From assembly GCA_025060595.1 (NCBI GenBank), contig JANXBX010000005.1, positions 62,001-126,000 on the forward strand: a stretch of DNA of 64,000 nt, read 5' to 3'. Positions within the stretch are counted from its first letter, which is position 1. Every line of letters begins with the position of its first letter. A program made the translations under genes and the position numbers. Positions 21,733-29,468 of the stretch are shown here, piece after piece. This DNA is from Synergistota bacterium (GTDB lineage: Bacteria; Synergistota; GBS-1). The notes under the pieces are model-generated. The model did no database searches. It had not been told where the DNA came from and saw only the letters and a program-made list of their open reading frames with translations.

Positions 21733-23012
21733 GCTTAGTCATAGTGCTTTCTCTTTTAGCTTTGGGAACAATGATATTTTTGACAGGAGAGCTACCCTGG
21801 GAAAGAAAGGGGCACACTTTGATAACCGCTCGTTTCGATTATGTAGGAGGACTCAAGGAGGGAGATGCAGTTAGAGTTGCTGGGGTAAAGGTTGGAAAGG
21901 TTCTTTCTATTTCTATAGGTGATGACGGAGTATATGTAGTTATGATGCTTTCTCCAGAGGTAAGGCTTAGAAAAGGTAGTTTATTTACCATAGGAACTGC
22001 TGGAATAGTGGGCGAAAAGTATGTGGAGATCATACCTCAATTTGAGGGGGAGCCTTTTAAACCTGGTGAAAAGGTTGAGGGGATCTCACCTTATAGGTTT
22101 GAAGAGCTTTTAGGTGAGCTAAGGTTGTCTATACAGAGATTTGGGAGAGTCATGGATGAGGTTGAGAAGCTTATAGGGGATGAAGCTTTTAGGAGGTCTA
22201 TAAAGGAGGGGACACAGAGGTTGAATGAAGTTCTTGAGGAAGCTAAGGAAAGCCTTGAGAAATTCAAAGTAGCCGCAAGCAACATTGATGAAAAGGCTTC
22301 TAAGCTTATGGATGAGCTGAGACTAACGGTTTCGGAAAACAGGAAAGATATCAAGGCTTTGGTTGAAAATCTCCGTTTAACGAGCGAAAGGCTTAGGGAC
22401 TTCGCTAGTAGGTTTGCTACACCTGAAAATGTTCAAATGTTGGAGGAGACTTTGCTTTCTATTAAAAAAGCAGCAGAGGAGATTTCTTCCTTAGCTAGAG
22501 GGTTTTCGGAAAGTGATATAAATAGGACAGTAGAGGATGTTAAGTTTACCGTAGAGGAGACGAAGAGGGTAGTAGAGAGAATTAAGACCTTAAAAGTTGA
22601 AGGAGGGGCAAGATTTAGGTATGGTAAGTCTTCATTTGTAGCGGAAGAGGAAGGGTTTACTGATGTATGGTTCAGGTTGGAGCTCCCTAATGAGCAAGAT
22701 AGCTTATTTGTGGCTATTGATGATTTAGGAGGAGAGAATGAATTTAGCTTCCTTCTTGAGAAAAAGATAGGGAGGAATTTTTCGCATAAGTTTGGAGTAA
22801 TAAGGGGGGAGCCTGGCTATGCTATCTTTCACCAGGCTTCCCCGAGGTTTTCTTGGGAATTCACTTTGCGTAATGTTAAGGAGTTTGAGTTGGACCTCTC
22901 TTTGTGGTATAGGCTATTTTATAGCAACGAGAGAAAACTCTTCCTTTTTAGCAGGTTTGATTATCAAAGTGGTGAGTTGAGACCTTCTATAGGTATAGAG
23001 TATAGGTTTTAA
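21714..23012 (+). CDS. mlaD: MlaD-type MCE protein with C-terminal outer-membrane-like beta domain
   Basis: 432 residues. An N-terminal membrane helix (about 3-22) is followed by an MCE domain (about 35-110) with FDYVGGLKEGDAVRVAGVKV and GTAGIVGEKYVEIIP. A long helical, coiled-coil region spans about 120-290. The last 140 residues alternate polar and hydrophobic residues like beta strands and end in Phe (IGIEYRF), as in outer-membrane barrels. Such long MlaD proteins with a terminal barrel are known from Veillonella, where one protein bridges both membranes. The first two parts are secure; the barrel is inferred from sequence pattern. No MlaA, MlaB or MlaC gene is nearby. Confidence 0.88.
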   Translation: MREVSLGLVIVLSLLALGTMIFLTGELPWERKGHTLITARFDYVGGLKEGDAVRVAGVKVGKVLSISIGDDGVYVVMMLSPEVRLRKGSLFTIGTAGIVGEKYVEIIPQFEGEPFKPGEKVEGISPYRFEELLGELRLSIQRFGRVMDEVEKLIGDEAFRRSIKEGTQRLNEVLEEAKESLEKFKVAASNIDEKASKLMDELRLTVSENRKDIKALVENLRLTSERLRDFASRFATPENVQMLEETLLSIKKAAEEISSLARGFSESDINRTVEDVKFTVEETKRVVERIKTLKVEGGARFRYGKSSFVAEEEGFTDVWFRLELPNEQDSLFVAIDDLGGENEFSFLLEKKIGRNFSHKFGVIRGEPGYAIFHQASPRFSWEFTLRNVKEFELDLSLWYRLFYSNERKLFLFSRFDYQSGELRPSIGIEYRF

Positions 23013-24340
23013 CTTTCAAAGAAAACTTTATACCCCTTTATTGCCGAAAAAAGATCTGCTTTACTCGAAATTTCGAAGGGCGAGTGCATGTTAAGTAAAG
23101 GTGGTCCACAGTCCACAACTTCTACTCCAAATCTTGCTAGAAACTTGGCTACGGTTCCTCCTCCACCTTCATCAACCTTTCCTAGCTCGGCTGCCTGCCA
23201 AGCTATATTATTTTCATTGAATAATCTTCTTATCCAGCCCGTGTATTCCGCATCAGCTTCGCTTCCACCGGCTTTTCCTCTTACGCCAGTAAATCTTGAT
23301 ATCGCAATTCCATATCCAAGTAAAGCTGCGTTTTTTATCTCGTGAACCTCCTCAAAGAGAGGGTTAACCGCAGCATGAACATCTGCTGAGATGGCCTTAC
23401 TATTCCAAAGGGTTCTCTCAAGAATGAGATTAGACGAATTCCCTTCCCATTCTTCAAGAAGCTCTATTACCCACTTCCTTAGGATATTTGACTCTAGTCC
23501 GCTTATTCCAAAGCTTCCGATTTCCTCTCTATCAGCTAATATTAGGAGTATAGAGTGTTTGGGTTTTTCTACTTTCAGAAAGGCTTCTATTCCAGCAAAT
23601 GCGCATATCCTATCATCTTGGCCATATCCTCCTATCATACTTTTATCAAAGCCTATATCCTGAGCTTTATAAGCTGGGACCGCCTCAATATCGGAGCTAA
23701 CAAAATCTTCTTCCTCGATATCGTATTTTTCCTTTAATATCTTCAAAATTTTAAGTTTAACTTTTTCCTTTTCCTCTTTTTCTTCCTCTATAGGCATGTT
23801 TCCAACTACGATGTCAAGGGTTTCTCCTTCTATGAATTCCGAGGCTTTTTTTTCCATCTGCTTATAAGCTAAGTGAGGTAGCAGATCAGGTATTACGAAT
23901 ACAGGATCTTCGCTTTCCTCTCCTATTTTCCATTCTATGATTTTGCCGTTTTCCTTTACTATCCTTCCGTGAAGAGATAAAGGTATGTTAAGCCACTGGT
24001 ATTTTTTGATACCGCCGTAATAATGAGTTTCAAATAAAGCTATGCCATGCTTTTCATATAAAGGATGTACTTTAAGATCTATTCTTGGTGTATCTACGTG
24101 AGCTGCAACTATCCTTAGACCTTCTTCTAGGGGAAGTTCTCCCTTAAGTGCTACTCCTATTATTTTTTCTTTAAGCTTGAATATCCTATGGGCTTTTTCT
24201 TTAAGGGCTTTTTCAGCATATCTTATAGCTTCCCATTCTGTCTTAACATTATTTAAAAACTCTTTAAATTTTTCACCAATTTTATAGCTTTCTTCTCTTT
24301 CCTCGGGAAGAAGCTTTTCCCATGCGCTTTTTCTCTTCAT
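23009..24340 (-). CDS. M18 family aminopeptidase (aspartyl aminopeptidase type)
   Basis: 443 residues with the M18 metal and catalytic motifs: [42 protein letters not shown] and [15 protein letters not shown]. These cytoplasmic tetrahedral zinc enzymes remove N-terminal, often acidic, residues from peptides. A Glu/Lys-rich insert lies at about residues 185-205. Its start overlaps the stop of the upstream chemoreceptor gene by 4 bases (ATGA), so the two are co-transcribed. Its stop overlaps that of mlaD on the other strand. Confidence 0.94.
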
Positions 24341-26361
24341 GCTTCGACCTCCTTTATTTGGGTTTCTTCTATCTTAAATTTTGAGATGGTTTCCTTCACG
24401 AACCTTGATATTTCCCTGAGTTCTGAAGCTGTGGAGGCTAGCTCTTCGCTAGAGGCGGTTATTTCTTGAACGCTTGCTGAAACATCCTCTATTGCTTGAG
24501 CGTTCTTTTCTGCTTTTACGCTCACTTCATTTATTATTTTAACTACTTCTTCTGAAGTTTTAACTTCTCTCGAAATTATATCCTCAAGGTCATCGATAAG
24601 TTTTTTGGTTTCACTTACTGAGGATATTATAGCTTCTACAGCAAGCTTTGATTCTTCTACTAAGCTTGTTCCCTTTTCTACAGCTTTACTGCTTTTGATC
24701 ATGCTTTGAACTGCTAATTCGGTGTCTTTTCTTACCTCCTCGATAAGCTTTGATATCTGCATTGCTGCTTGTCCAGAAGCTTCAGCAAGTTTTCTAACCT
24801 CTTCAGCAACTACAGCGAATCCTCTCCCTGCTTCTCCGGCTCTTGCTGCTTCTATAGCCGCATTTAAAGCTAACAGATTAGTTTGATCAGCTATACTTGT
24901 TATTAGATCGACTATTTGACTTATCTCTCTAGATCTATCTCCAAGTTTTTTTACAGCCTCTGCTGTTGAAAGAACCTCTCTTCTAATTTCGCTCATGTTT
25001 TCAATTACGTGTTGAGAGGCTTCCTTTATTTTGATAGAAGCATCTTCAGCTTTAGCAGATGCATTTCCTGTAGCTTTCACATTTTTGTAAGCTGATTCTA
25101 CTATATGGGAAAGGTTAGTTAGCGCTTGAGAGGCTTGCAGTAACTCTTCTGTTTGCTTTTTGGTGTTTTCTGTAACTTCTATGATTTTTTCTGATGTTGT
25201 AGAGGTAGCTTTAGCATTTTCTTCGCATATGTTTAATAAGATAGAGGAAGATTCGTCAAGCTTGAGGCTTCTTTGTGTTACACTGCTTATTATATCCCTA
25301 AGCGAGTTTATCATAGAGTTTAAGCTTTCACATAGGTCTCCTACTTCATCCTTTGTTAGCTTTGGTATGTAAAAAGAAAGATCTCCCAGTGCTGCTCTTT
25401 GAGCTAATCCCATAAGTCTTCTTATAGGGTTTACGATACTGTTTCCAAGTAAGATACCAATGAGAAGAAAGACAATGGCGATTACGATGCCGGCGAAAAT
25501 GGACTTCTTTCTGATCGAAGATAATGGAGAAAGGATTTCTTCAAGATTTACGCCTGTTGCTACAGCTAATTTTATATCTCCGTTCTCAATATAATTTACC
25601 GCTACAAATTTTTCCTTTCCCTGAAATGCGTATCTACTGACCCTTTTTTGATTGGTTAGATCGTCTTCAAGCTTATTTAAGTTAAGCTCGCTTAAGGTTT
25701 TCCCAATATTTTCTAGTTTTGGATGGTGAACCAGCAAGCGTTTTTTAAGATCTACTATATAAGGATAAGCGCTTTCAAAACCTGTTTTGCTCTTAAGGTC
25801 TTCTTCTGATTTTTTAGTTACCTGAGATATGCTTGAAAAACGTAAAATTCCGATAAGTATTCCAAAAGTTTGAACGGGGTGTGAGAGAGCTATTCCAAAC
25901 TTTTCCTCTTTTAAGTTTAGATCCAATACATTGCTTATAAAAGCTTTACCCTCTTTTCCTAAGCTTAAAGCCTTTTCTACTACTTCCCTAGGTATCTTTA
26001 TGCTCTCTTCGTTTGTAGCTATCATTTTACCATTCATGTTGTAAAGCTGAAAAGCTAGAAATGAGGGATCTTCTTTAACTATCCTCATCATATCTCCTAT
26101 GGCGGTTTCTGCCATATTTATAGATATAGCAGTTAAGAAAGAACCTCTTCCACTATATTCTTTCACACTTCTAAGCTTTTCTTCAATAAATGAAGAAATT
26201 TTAGTAGCTATAAAGTCTCCCATGATGCTAAAGAACCTTATGCTTAAATTTTCCACAGTTTGTCCGCTTGTATTTACGCTTATAAATGTGGAGACTCCTA
26301 AGGGGACTAAAACGCTTATGAGTACTAAAATTAATATCTTGAGGCGCAAGGAGGTTCTCAT
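24337..26361 (-). CDS. Methyl-accepting chemotaxis protein
   Basis: 674 residues: first membrane helix (about 8-30), a periplasmic Cache-type sensor (about 35-285, with [20 protein letters not shown]), second helix (about 288-310), HAMP domain (about 310-365) and a cytoplasmic signalling domain whose hairpin tip reads [20 protein letters not shown] and [13 protein letters not shown]. It senses a small ligand and signals through CheW/CheA. No CheR-binding pentapeptide is at the C-terminus. It is placed between the TRAP transporter and the M18 peptidase, which hints at an amino acid or peptide ligand. The upstream AGGGGGTG is suitably spaced from the ATG. Confidence 0.95.
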
Positions 26362-26401: not shown

Positions 26402-26412
26402 AGAGTATATCA
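26402..26412 (-). promoter_or_regulatory. Extended -10 promoter for the chemoreceptor gene
   Basis: Reading leftward, TGATATACT (TATACT complement at 26404-26409) overlaps the dctM stop codon and lies about 45 bases before the chemoreceptor start. The -35 is poor, but the TG of an extended -10 is present. It would give the receptor and peptidase genes expression independent of the TRAP operon. Confidence 0.5.
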
Positions 26413-27693
26413 TATAAGAGTTATCTGAGGAAATAGCATGAGGAGGATTGCACCTAAAATTAATGCTATAAAGAAGGGGGTTACTCCTTTAAATATGGTT
26501 TCCATTGGAATTTCAGGGAAAATTCCTTTTATAACATAAGCGTTTATGCCCACAGGAGGGGTTATAACTCCTATCTGGGTTACAAGTACTACCATTACTC
26601 CGAACCATATTGGATCAAAGCCAAGTTTTATTACTACCGGATAAAATATTGGAATAGTTAAAAGTATCAACGCCAGAGCATCTATAAAACATCCGGATAT
26701 TACATAAATCAATATTATGAATGCCATTGCAAGATAAGGGTAATTTTCAAATTGAAGAAGCCAGCTTTGAAGAGCTTGAGGTAGTCTTGTTATGGCCAGA
26801 AAGTGACCAAATACGGCTGCTCCTGCAACTACAAAGATTATCATACATGATATCCTGACACTCTCTTGAAGTGAGCGTTTTATTCCTTCCCAGGATATCC
26901 TTTTTCTTAGAAGAGAGATGATCCCTATTAATCCAGTTCCTACTGCTCCTGCTTCAATAGGAGTGAAGATTCCCTTTAGTAAACCTCCGACAACTAAAAG
27001 GAATATGAGCAAAACCTCAGAAGCGCTTAAAAGAGAAAAGAGCCTTTCTTTCCATGAACTTTTAGGGCTTTTAGAGGCTATCTGAGGGTCTATTTTAGCC
27101 CATACATATATAGCTATGGAGAAGAGAATTGAAAGCATTATTCCTGGGAGTATCCCGGCTATAAATAGTTTTCCAATGGATTGTTGAGTTAGTATACCGT
27201 ATATTACGAATATTACGCTAGGGGGGATCATTATTCCTAGACTTCCCCCAGCAGCTACACATCCAGCAGCTAGAGATTCGGAGTATCCATATCTTTTCAT
27301 TTCGGGTAATGCTACCATAGCCATTGTAGCGGTAGAAGCGTTTGTTGACCCACATATAGCTGCAAATCCTGCGCTCGCCCATATAGTAGCTATAGCTAGC
27401 CCACCAGGTAAGTGTCCTATGAGTTTATTAGATGCCTCATATAGCCTTTTACTCATTCCAGAATTGTGAGCTAGTTGTCCCATAAGCACGAATAGGGGAA
27501 TTACTCCCAATGTGTAAGAGTTAAATGAGGAGAAAAAGTCAACTGCAAGCAGCTTCATTGCTGCGGGAAATGAAACTAGTAATCCAAATCCAATAAATCC
27601 AACGAGAGCCATAGCTATAGCTACTGGTATCTTTAGTAAAAAAAGTAGTATTAGGGTGAATGTGCCGATTGCCCCTAAAAATAAGGGGGTCAA
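26410..27693 (-). CDS. dctM: TRAP transporter large permease DctM
   Basis: 427 residues, about a dozen membrane helices, with family motifs LLKIPVAIAMALVGF, CGSTNASTATMAMVALPEM, AAGGSLGIMIPPSVIFVIYG and VTQIGVITPPVGINAYVIKG. It is the ion-coupled transport subunit of a tripartite TRAP transporter for an organic acid or amino acid. Its start overlaps the dctQ stop. Expression is expected to depend on the attenuator upstream of dctP. Confidence 0.96.
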   Translation of the reverse strand: MTPLFLGAIGTFTLILLFLLKIPVAIAMALVGFIGFGLLVSFPAAMKLLAVDFFSSFNSYTLGVIPLFVLMGQLAHNSGMSKRLYEASNKLIGHLPGGLAIATIWASAGFAAICGSTNASTATMAMVALPEMKRYGYSESLAAGCVAAGGSLGIMIPPSVIFVIYGILTQQSIGKLFIAGILPGIMLSILFSIAIYVWAKIDPQIASKSPKSSWKERLFSLLSASEVLLIFLLVVGGLLKGIFTPIEAGAVGTGLIGIISLLRKRISWEGIKRSLQESVRISCMIIFVVAGAAVFGHFLAITRLPQALQSWLLQFENYPYLAMAFIILIYVISGCFIDALALILLTIPIFYPVVIKLGFDPIWFGVMVVLVTQIGVITPPVGINAYVIKGIFPEIPMETIFKGVTPFFIALILGAILLMLFPQITLI

Positions 27694-28190
27694 GCTTTTT
27701 CCCTCCCTAGTTTTCTCATTTCTATTTGGATTTTTTCAGTTAGTTTTATCTTTTCTAAGAGAGGGGAAACTCCATTTATGAGGGCGAAGCCTACACATAT
27801 TCCGATAATTGCGTAACTTAAATACAAAGGTATCCCAAGAGTCATTGAAACTTCACCTGAAGCTTTAGAATTTAGGCTTGAAAAGACCATACTTATAGAG
27901 AGTACAGCTAAAAATAAGGTTGTAATTGTGTGCGATAGGCGTTCTACAAGCTTCAACTTATGTTTTGACAAGATTTTGTCTATTAGGTCTATTTTTATCT
28001 GTGTTTCACTTTGAAAACTTTTGAGGATAGCCAGTGATAGCATTAAAGAGGTGAGAAACTCCGCTATGTCATAGCTACCAGGTATGGGATACCTAAATAA
28101 TCTAAGTATAACATCAATGCATATTAAAGCAGTTAAGAATCCTAAGACAAGGGCAGAAAGCAAGTTTAGCTTACTTCCAAGCCATTTCAT
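27690..28190 (-). CDS. dctQ: TRAP transporter small permease DctQ
   Basis: 166 residues with four predicted membrane helices and the DctQ-like segment CIDVILRLFRYPIPGSYDIAEFL near residue 25-45 region. It partners DctM in the inner membrane. Overlaps both neighbours by 4 bases, as ATGA-type junctions, so dctP, dctQ and dctM are one translationally coupled unit. Confidence 0.92.
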   Translation of the reverse strand: MKWLGSKLNLLSALVLGFLTALICIDVILRLFRYPIPGSYDIAEFLTSLMLSLAILKSFQSETQIKIDLIDKILSKHKLKLVERLSHTITTLFLAVLSISMVFSSLNSKASGEVSMTLGIPLYLSYAIIGICVGFALINGVSPLLEKIKLTEKIQIEMRKLGREKA

Positions 28191-29203
28191 TTTTTAGTTT
28201 CCTCCTTTATAAGTTTTTTAAGGGTTTCTATTGCTTCTTTTCCGGGAACTCCTTTTTTCTGGATCTCATTCATGTACTCATCTATTACAGGTTCTACCGC
28301 TTTTCTCCATCTTTCATGTTCATCGTCAGGAAGGGATATTATTTCGTTTCCCAAGCTTAGCGTAAACTCCTTACCCTCTAAATCGCTTTCATCCCATGCT
28401 TTTCCGTGTTTTTCTACCCAATCTATGCTTATCTCTTCTAAAATCTTCTTCACATCTTCTGGAAGATTTTCCCATTTCTTTTGATTCATGACTACATACA
28501 TCCCAGTTGTATAGCCTATCTTTGTACACATTATGGTGTGTTTTATCACTTCAGCTTGTTTCCAACCTTTCAAGGTTTCCATCGGGGCGAAAGTAGCTTC
28601 AACGATTCCTTTTTGAAGAGCCTCATATGCCATGCCCTGACTCATGGCTACTGGGACACCTCCTAAGGCTTTAGCAACTTTTGCACTAAATCCGGTAGTT
28701 CTTATCTTAAGTCCCTTTAGATCTTCAAGCTTATTTATTTTTATTTTAGAGTGAAGTATGCCAGGGCCATGGGCGTGTAAATATAGTACTTTGACTCCAG
28801 ATAATTCTTTTGGATTTATCATGTTAAAGTATCTGTTAATCACTTTGGTTGCTGTTGTACCATCTGGGTAACCTAGAGGGAGATCGACGGCTTCCATAAG
28901 AGGGAATCTCCCACTTGTGTAGGCGAAACAAGACATACCTATATCTGCTATTCCATTCAATACGCCTTCAAAGATGTTAGGTCCTTGAAGTAGAGCACCT
29001 CCGGGAAAGTAAGATATTTCGACTTTTCCGTTGCTTCTTTTACCTACTTCCTTTATCCAGCTTTCAGCTAGGATAGATTGTATGTGAGATGGGGGAAAGA
29101 AATTTGCGTAAGATAATTTTATAACTCCCTCTGCTGAATTTAAAGGATTACCCAATCCTATTATTAAGCCTAGAAATACGCTTATTAATAATAGTTTCTT
29201 CAC
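28187..29203 (-). CDS. dctP: TRAP transporter periplasmic substrate-binding protein DctP
   Basis: 338 residues with an N-terminal signal peptide (KLLLISVFLGLIIGLGNPL) and the DctP fold: FPPSHIQSILAESW, LKGLKIRTTGFSAKVAKALG containing the conserved substrate-carboxylate Arg, and ATFAPMETLKGWK. It captures a carboxylate ligand and hands it to DctQM. The GTG at 29203 is chosen because GGGGG lies 8 bases upstream; an ATG 7 bases earlier is out of frame. Substrate cannot be read from sequence, but the Tyr-codon leader immediately upstream suggests tyrosine or a related aromatic acid. Confidence 0.95.
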   Translation of the reverse strand: MKKLLLISVFLGLIIGLGNPLNSAEGVIKLSYANFFPPSHIQSILAESWIKEVGKRSNGKVEISYFPGGALLQGPNIFEGVLNGIADIGMSCFAYTSGRFPLMEAVDLPLGYPDGTTATKVINRYFNMINPKELSGVKVLYLHAHGPGILHSKIKINKLEDLKGLKIRTTGFSAKVAKALGGVPVAMSQGMAYEALQKGIVEATFAPMETLKGWKQAEVIKHTIMCTKIGYTTGMYVVMNQKKWENLPEDVKKILEEISIDWVEKHGKAWDESDLEGKEFTLSLGNEIISLPDDEHERWRKAVEPVIDEYMNEIQKKGVPGKEAIETLKKLIKEETKK

Positions 29204-29237: not shown

Positions 29238-29276
29238 AAAAAAAACCGCCACCCGGGAAAGGTGGCGGTTTTTTTT
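29238..29276 (-). terminator. Rho-independent terminator of the tyr leader (attenuator)
   Basis: On the minus strand an A8 run and stem ACCGCCACC pair with GGTGGCGGT and a T8 run, around a 7-base loop. It sits between the leader peptide and the dctP ribosome site, 35 bases before the dctP start, so it would stop transcription before the transporter genes. The palindromic stem could also work rightward, but no gene runs into it from that side. Confidence 0.9.
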
Positions 29277-29407
29277 ATCAGAATTGCCGAGGAAGGAGCT
29301 TACCTCAGCAATAACGCAGCCAGCCTTTCCCGCAACTTGGCGGGCTTAAGATAATAGTAATAATAATAGTAAACGCAATAAGACTTATCCTTGAGGCTGA
29401 CTGCGTT
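29254..29407 (-). promoter_or_regulatory. Mutually exclusive RNA arms of a translation-dependent attenuator
   Basis: Four arms on the minus strand. Arm 1 (29407-29395) pairs with arm 2 (29325-29313) over 13 base pairs including one G-U. An antiterminator segment (29332-29319) overlaps arm 2 and pairs with 29266-29254 over 13 base pairs with one bulged C; that partner is the 5' stem and loop of the terminator. Arm 1:2 pairing therefore permits the terminator, and freeing arm 2 removes it. A 10-pair hairpin (29312-29303 with 29292-29283) sits between them and shortens the distance. This is the logic of trp/his-type attenuators. Pairings are seen in the sequence; regulation is inference. Confidence 0.8.
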
Positions 29408-29416
29408 TATTATCAT
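29300..29416 (-). CDS. Tyrosine-rich leader peptide (38 residues)
   Basis: An ATG at 29416, preceded by AAGGGG at good spacing, opens a 38-codon frame ending TAA at 29300. The peptide starts MIINAVSLKDKSYCV, has seven Tyr codons in a row (codons 16-22, 29371-29351) plus one at codon 13, and ends LRERLAALLLR. There are no Phe, Trp or His codons, so it should sense charged tRNA-Tyr specifically. A ribosome waiting at codon 13 would cover the end of arm 1, and a ribosome finishing translation would cover arm 2. It lies between a strong promoter and the terminator before dctP. Confidence 0.85.
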   Translation of the reverse strand: MIINAVSLKDKSYCVYYYYYYYLKPAKLRERLAALLLR

Positions 29417-29439
29417 GCTTATATCCCCTTTCGCTTAAG

Positions 29440-29468
29440 TTTATATCACAGTGAAGAGACCGTGTCAA
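29440..29468 (-). promoter_or_regulatory. Strong promoter of the tyr leader and TRAP operon
   Basis: On the minus strand TTGACA (29468-29463) and TATAAA (29445-29440) are spaced by 17 bases, and TGA precedes the -10 as in an extended -10. Transcription would start near 29433, about 17 bases before the leader peptide ATG. Confidence 0.85.

Follow-up and report, generated by a model that had tools for sequence, protein, structure and literature searches.

The dctP gene of a TRAP transporter operon is preceded by a short reading frame with an uninterrupted run of tyrosine codons, which raises the question whether the operon is governed by the supply of charged tRNA-Tyr and, if so, which compound the transporter brings into the cell. 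The operon was analysed within a stretch of DNA of 64 kb (the whole of which is called the window; plain coordinates refer to it), derived from a genome assembly of 1.86 Mb (G000). Among the nearest relatives of G000 are two MAGs, 'bacterium GBS-1' and 'bacterium 42_11'. GTDB places GBS-1 in Synergistota; at NCBI it is unclassified.

Leader, pairing arms and terminator upstream of dctP

All elements of the locus are encoded on the minus strand. The promoter (29440–29468), read directly from the sequence, consists of TTGACA (29468–29463), a 17-nt spacer and TATAAA (29445–29440), and the spacer-end TGTGNTATAA is invariant in four orthologues. A promoter scan missed TATAAA because it accepts only -10 elements that end in T. 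Situated between the promoter and the first gene is a short leader ORF (29300–29416) with a Shine-Dalgarno sequence AAAGGGG (29425–29431), and translation of this ORF is predicted. The putative leader peptide of 38 codons, MIINAVSLKDKSYCVYYYYYYYLKPAKLRERLAALLLR, contains eight Tyr, seven of which are consecutive (29371–29351); no other (TAY)5 or longer stretch occurs on either strand of the window.

The leader RNA can adopt two pairings which exclude each other. Arm 1, the protector (AACGCAGUCAGCC, 29395–29407), is located in codons 4–8 and pairs with arm 2 (GGCUGGCUGCGUU, 29313–29325) over 13 bp, with a duplex energy of -23.4 kcal/mol. Arm 2 overlaps the antiterminator 5' arm (CGGGAAAGGCUGGC, 29319–29332), which pairs with the 5' stem and loop of the terminator (29266–29254) over 13 bp with one bulged C and a duplex energy of -21.7 kcal/mol. 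Formation of the antiterminator is incompatible with the protector pairing, and the antiterminator overlaps with the terminator. The strong intrinsic terminator itself, AAAAAAAACCGCCACC-UUUCCCG-GGUGGCGGUUUUUUUU, extends from 29276 to 29238, upstream of dctP. A preliminary description of the locus had listed a near-consensus promoter, the 38-codon frame with its Tyr run, a strong terminator and two exclusive 13-bp pairings, all of which are present.

Two additional hairpins, neither of which had been named in that description, are conserved as well. A small hairpin, CCCGC-CAAGUU-GCGGG (29329–29344), lies just 3' of the Tyr run and competes with the antiterminator, while a spacer hairpin (29283–29312) encloses the leader stop codon. 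As a whole, the leader RNA folds with -82.6 kcal/mol compared with -55.5 ± 4.3 kcal/mol for shuffled sequences (z = -6.3; reached by 0 of 200).

The layout had been likened to that of trp/his-type attenuators, and the elements listed for it are indeed found. In the trp layout, however, the control codons lie within the first arm, whereas the Tyr codons of the dctP leader are positioned outside and downstream of arm 1. At the gathering score no Rfam family matches the dctP leader; with a permissive threshold only terminator-driven, sub-threshold scores to Phe_leader, Leu_leader and Thr_leader were obtained. A covariance-model match to a T-box is likewise absent from the leader.

Conservation in related genomes and a sister element before aroE

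G000 encodes 22 DctP-like proteins. For the dctP of the attenuated locus, three relatives each contain a single clear orthologue (81, 81 and 68% identity), and in all three the orthologous gene is preceded by the same device. The dctP leaders were compared among these four genomes (n = 4; G000, G001, G002 and G003, the relatives' loci being L009, L010 and L011). The relatives' leaders read (M)LISVTSRRNVSYYAYYYYYYLYPARLRERLVALPLR, MLMVTSAASEKVYYYAYYYFYYYSPPEGGKGWLRKG and (M)LSQSAASKLHSFGYRYYYYYLKPARMRERLAVLTMG, so that between six and nine Tyr codons are found per leader; aligned Tyr codons differ mainly by synonymous T/C exchanges in the third position. In G002 the Tyr block is YRYYYYY. In the G001 leader MLMVTSAASEKVYYYAYYYFYYYSPPEGGKGWLRKG the peptide is frameshifted past the Tyr block with the RNA arms kept, which indicates that conservation applies to the Tyr codons and the RNA but does not extend to the C-terminal peptide. 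Conservation in close relatives, on which the preliminary description had made its reading depend, thus extends to Tyr codons, arms, antiterminator and terminator in all four genomes.

The genes located 5' of the leader differ between the genomes, with tRNA-Arg/rpoB in G000, a PaaK-like (phenylacetate-CoA-ligase-like) ligase in G003 and other genes in G002, indicating that the leader travels with the dctP operon. The ligase-like gene of G003 (L117 2812–4128, minus strand) is oriented divergently from the Tyr-attenuated TRAP operon.

A first covariance model, built on the 3' half of the leader, detected a second homologous element in G000, G001 and G003 with 93–98 bits. These sister attenuators are located at C1:177251–177378 in G000 (L095 7252–7379, minus strand), at L096 5190–5318 in G003 and at L097 5692–5821 (minus strand) in G001. 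Downstream follow aroE (TIGR00507, 270 bits) and a type I aroD (TIGR01093, 175 bits), then tctC-tctB-tctA and an IclR-type regulator. Arms and terminator are the same in the sister and the dctP attenuators. The sister leader peptide, however, codes for WFSFYYYFYFTW, which includes Trp, Phe and Tyr, and a W/F/Y block is found in all three sister leaders (MVKSVANLNVWFSFYYYFYFTWPAKLRERLAMLCKR, MRKGTASLNVWFSFNYYYFYFTWPAKLRERLAVLSLR and MRNCVTSLNVWFVYYYYFYFTWPAKVRERLVALSRR). Since aroE-aroD represents a common step of Trp, Phe and Tyr synthesis and the TRAP operon carries Tyr codons only, codon identity tracks the pathway. At the level of sequence, the sister attenuator therefore argues that the identity of the codons matters. 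It is possible that aroE-aroD-tctCBA-iclR forms an operon for uptake of a shikimate-pathway intermediate under aromatic amino-acid control.

The four dctP leaders and the three sister aroE leaders (G000, G001, G003) were combined into a set of seven, each with an A/G-rich, ribosome-binding-site-like sequence ahead of the leader start. Within the four dctP leaders, protector, small hairpin and terminator together comprise 31 pairs, which are formed to 98%, and four pairs are changed on both sides, compared with 1.0 in shuffles (reached in 2 of 500). In the set of seven, 98% of cells are formed for 28 pairs, and the number of pairs changed on both sides rises to 7, whereas shuffles give 2.2 ± 1.2 (7 being reached in 1 of 500); when the partner strand is slid, pairing falls to 30–49%. 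Double-sided changes are found in 5 of the 13 pairs between arm 1 and arm 2. One compensatory change each is present in the small hairpin (29344–29329), which is 100% paired, and in the terminator stem, which occurs in every leader. An equivalent of the spacer hairpin is found throughout, with -14.5 to -16.3 kcal/mol in 7 of 7 leaders despite differing sequences. The 12 core pairs of the antiterminator with 29266–29254 are kept in 7 of 7 leaders and are almost invariant, and hence provide no covariation support of their own; such near-invariance is expected of strands that are obliged to pair in more than one way.

A covariance model of all seven leaders (R2) was run over 392 genomes and gave seven matches with 100–127 bits, the next best reaching 34 bits. 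Besides these seven leaders no other copy of the attenuator was found by R2 in the 392 genomes, which places the device in four related genomes only. Consistently, the exact pattern GGGAAAGG-N45-75-CCTTTCCC occurs twice each in G000, G001 and G003 and once in G002. Weak model matches at C3:40669 and C1:210133 of G000 and in C4 of G066 are ordinary terminators after genes. A scan upstream of deltaproteobacterial DctP relatives with 45–58% identity (L040–L048) revealed no Tyr-run leader. Tyr runs outside the family gave many matches in 201 genomes, and at the loci inspected these were runs within ordinary genes or non-coding. In several genomes, TAY-repeat runs are found directly upstream of dnaN (L052, L066, L068–L071); presumably these represent origin repeats of the DnaA-trio type and not leader peptides.

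A third, more distant element of G000 combines a 37-codon leader containing eight Lys with an antiterminator and a terminator (C6:115024–115150, minus strand; L098, L120). It is situated in front of lysX (TIGR02144) in an operon of arginine/lysine type, and Lys-rich leaders are also present in relatives (L139 1269–1382; L141 1252–1386), the core LKRNKxxKKP being kept in G003 and G002. The element is a candidate Lys (or Lys/Arg) attenuator. T-boxes of G000 are found only before carA and argG (C6:62681–62941 and C2:125296–125555), so that arginine genes appear to use T-boxes and aromatic genes leader peptides. Tyr, W/F/Y and Lys leaders together suggest that codon-reading attenuation serves several amino acids in this lineage.

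The TRAP operon and its probable substrate

The genes downstream of the leader, all on the minus strand, encode the solute-binding protein DctP (28187–29203; Pfam DctP, 178 bits), the small permease DctQ (27690–28190; Pfam DctQ) and the large permease DctM (26410–27693; Pfam DctM, 337 bits), whose adjacent families make up the gene set of a DctPQM TRAP transporter. They are followed by two further putative operon members, a methyl-accepting chemotaxis protein (24337–26361; Pfam MCPsignal and HAMP, weak dCache) and, as the last gene, an M18 aminopeptidase (23009–24340; Pfam M18, 291 bits; NCBIfam PRK02256). This gene order is identical in G000 and G003. Uptake, chemotaxis and peptide hydrolysis may hence share control by Tyr.

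By sequence, the closest solved proteins to DctP are Desal_3247 (4n6d), Dde_0634 (4pgn, 4pgp, 4nap) and the group 7nsw/7nrr/5i5p, identity with solved aromatic receptors being only 24–33%. An AlphaFold model of DctP (mean pLDDT 78.9) was compared by Foldseek, and the first 27 matches are almost only families of aromatic-ligand receptors, namely Dde_0634, solute-binding proteins described as aromatic-acid-specific, and TarP; 4n6d, 5im2 and 4p56, whose ligands are not given in the Foldseek output, are also among these 27. The TarP matches carry coumarate, ferulate, caffeate, cinnamate or 4-hydroxyphenylacetate. As a control, a paralogous DctP of G000 was found by structure search to be nearest to 4p47 and sialic-acid receptors. 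The Dde_0634 structures 4PGN, 4PGP and 4NAP include complexes with D-Trp and indolepyruvate. The same protein has been reported as an indole-3-acetate binder (PMC9973260, PMC9543091). The link between the transporter and an aromatic substrate, which had been predicted from the Tyr codons, thus gains support from the sequence and the model of DctP. Most likely, the operon imports a Tyr-yielding aromatic carboxylate, i.e. Tyr, 4-hydroxyphenylpyruvate, 4-hydroxyphenylacetate or a similar aryl acid. An attractive, though hypothetical, route would take up 4-hydroxyphenylacetate, 4-hydroxyphenylpyruvate or another aryl acid and subsequently convert it to Tyr.

With regard to the gene content of the hosts, G000, G002 and G003 all encode an indolepyruvate ferredoxin oxidoreductase. 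G000 possesses genes for chorismate synthase and prephenate dehydrogenase, so that import would supplement synthesis, and the organism is probably not dependent on imported Tyr. In G003 no prephenate dehydrogenase was found, and salvage of a Tyr precursor would therefore weigh more there.

It is also conceivable that the attenuator is real and tuned to Tyr while the cargo plays no part in Tyr synthesis; an aromatic compound that provides energy, with its use tied to nitrogen or amino-acid starvation, would be one example. Such an arrangement, which competes solely with the substrate part of our explanation, has an appreciable but minor chance of being correct. It would agree with a binding-protein family that takes coumarate, ferulate and 4-hydroxyphenylacetate, with the chorismate synthase and prephenate dehydrogenase of G000, with its indolepyruvate ferredoxin oxidoreductase, an enzyme used in aromatic amino-acid breakdown, and with the chemoreceptor and aminopeptidase of the operon. 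However, amino-acid-specific attenuators as a rule govern synthesis or uptake of the amino acid concerned, as does the sister attenuator, which favours import of a compound that yields Tyr.

Ribosome positions, alternative readings and known systems

Each leader was folded up to the end of the antiterminator with a ribosome footprint blocked (assumed to cover 15 nt behind and 12 nt ahead), the resulting probabilities being equilibrium estimates of a switch that in reality is kinetic. Without a ribosome, arm 1 and arm 2 pair with a probability of 0.92–1.00, which implies termination by default. With the ribosome at the stop codon, the antiterminator does not exceed 0.012, a value that depends on the footprint chosen. 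In most leaders the antiterminator can form as long as the ribosome has advanced no further than about the first control codon, where it masks arm 1. Once a single ribosome has moved into the Tyr run, arm 1 is exposed a few nucleotides behind it; the planar model re-pairs the arms and the antiterminator probability is about 0. Masking by a single ribosome thus fails to explain antitermination at the Tyr run, and the switch must rely on queueing or on the stalled ribosome physically separating the arms. A second ribosome queued 30 nt behind masks arm 1 throughout the run in most leaders, though not in every one. The antiterminator probability was then 0.95–1.00 across the Tyr run of the G000 dctP leader and 0.99–1.00 in G002, and less in G001 and G003; of the aroE leaders, that of G000 gave high, that of G003 mixed and that of G001 low values. 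For the G003 dctP and the G001 aroE leaders, two ribosomes give low values over most positions.

The leader is thus very probably a ribosome-mediated, Tyr-specific transcription attenuator, which senses charged tRNA-Tyr and controls dctPQM-mcp-pepM18, most likely an operon for import of aromatic acids or Tyr precursors. Its anatomy, conservation and covariation, the sister attenuator and the nearest structures of DctP are observed, and the response to Tyr, the queueing step and the substrate are inferred. With ample Tyr, the ribosome would reach the stop codon or be released and the antiterminator would fail to form; either the ribosome would cover the spacer hairpin or arm 1 would capture arm 2, the terminator would fold and transcription would stop. 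In the absence of leader translation, arm 1 would likewise pair with arm 2, leaving the operon off by default. When Tyr-tRNA is scarce, ribosomes would stall at the Tyr codons, and either a following ribosome would queue over arm 1 or the stalled ribosome would stand between the arms. Arm 2, thereby freed, would pair with the 5' stem and loop of the terminator and permit read-through into dctP.

A more far-reaching view would regard the leaders as interchangeable cassettes, in which one RNA frame of arms, antiterminator and terminator was duplicated within a lineage and its codon blocks were swapped, a Tyr-only block serving the aromatic-acid TRAP operon and a Trp/Phe/Tyr block serving aroE-aroD-tctCBA. 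Queueing of ribosomes over the upstream arm would then replace masking of arm 1 by a single ribosome, and the switch would control salvage of aryl acids to Tyr. We consider this combination tentative, somewhat less than evenly probable.

Since the fold terminates by default without leader translation, the leader might instead sense translation in general or a ribosome-targeting drug, the Tyr run being merely a slow stretch; antibiotic-driven, ribosome-mediated attenuation has been described for the BmrCD transporter of Bacillus subtilis (PMC4191407). This is improbable, since Tyr identity is retained in four genomes within an otherwise variable leader peptide, a W/F/Y leader precedes aroE-aroD and a K-rich one lysX, and the genes downstream serve uptake, not resistance. 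Even less probable is an arrest peptide, in which the nascent Tyr-rich chain stalls its ribosome upon sensing a small molecule, as TnaC does with tryptophan. The Tyr block is alike in all leaders and the peptide would be made just before the switch. Known arrest-type peptides, however, require specific scattered residues, and no such conservation is seen next to the block or beyond it, as illustrated by the frameshift of G001 and the YRYYYYY of G002; furthermore, the W/F/Y version fits codon supply better. The chance of an insulating terminator downstream of the tRNA/rpoB region next to a meaningless short frame is negligible, for although hairpins with T runs and TAY repeats arise randomly and many (TAY)5 matches elsewhere are not leaders, conservation before orthologous dctP in three relatives is, as sequence evidence, decisive against it, together with covariation in four genomes with differing neighbours and the homologous copy before aroE.

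For tyrosine genes, RNA control has been described in the form of T-boxes, not attenuators (PMC1262725). Tyr T-box riboswitches resemble the proposed device in sensing uncharged tRNA-Tyr and stopping transcription, but no T-box is present at the dctP leader. With respect to the transporter, TarPQM aromatic-acid TRAP systems and Dde_0634 provide the nearest solved structures of DctP, albeit at the low identity given above. The nearest counterpart in function, closest to the sister aroE leader, is aroR of Corynebacterium glutamicum, in which an aromatic-codon leader and ribosome stalling control an aromatic-pathway operon. According to Neshat 2014, as cited in PMC11802643, its Phe-Tyr-Phe stretch precedes the aroF operon and responds to Phe, not Tyr; aroR thus differs from the dctP leader in its codon block and in lacking a transporter. 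Similarly, the uORFC-13-1 motif of Acholeplasma combines a candidate leader ORF and a terminator upstream of aroF, a gene of the common aromatic pathway, but has Phe codons only, another structure and no transporter (PMC8632094). A Tyr-codon-only attenuator or an attenuated TRAP operon was not found in the literature search (subscription literature lying outside its coverage), in line with the earlier statement that a Tyr leader for TRAP genes is undescribed.

If the assignment is correct, the codon block marks from within the sequence what an orphan transporter does for the cell, and thereby opens its substrate class to testing. Two versions of a single RNA frame, one Tyr-only and the other Trp/Phe/Tyr, would moreover constitute a natural experiment, in which attenuator specificity evolves via swaps of the codon block. 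With the trp/his/pheA-type attenuators of proteobacteria (Rfam Phe_leader RF01859, Leu_leader RF00512, Thr_leader RF00506), the dctP leader shares a leader ORF with a codon run and the mutually exclusive protector hairpin, antiterminator and terminator. It has the sequence-level features of a classical attenuator and is predicted to work like one. In contrast to these systems, Tyr is its sole regulatory codon, a TRAP operon is the target, and arm 1 is placed upstream of the control codons instead of over them, which poses the concrete question of how stalling of the ribosome is transmitted.
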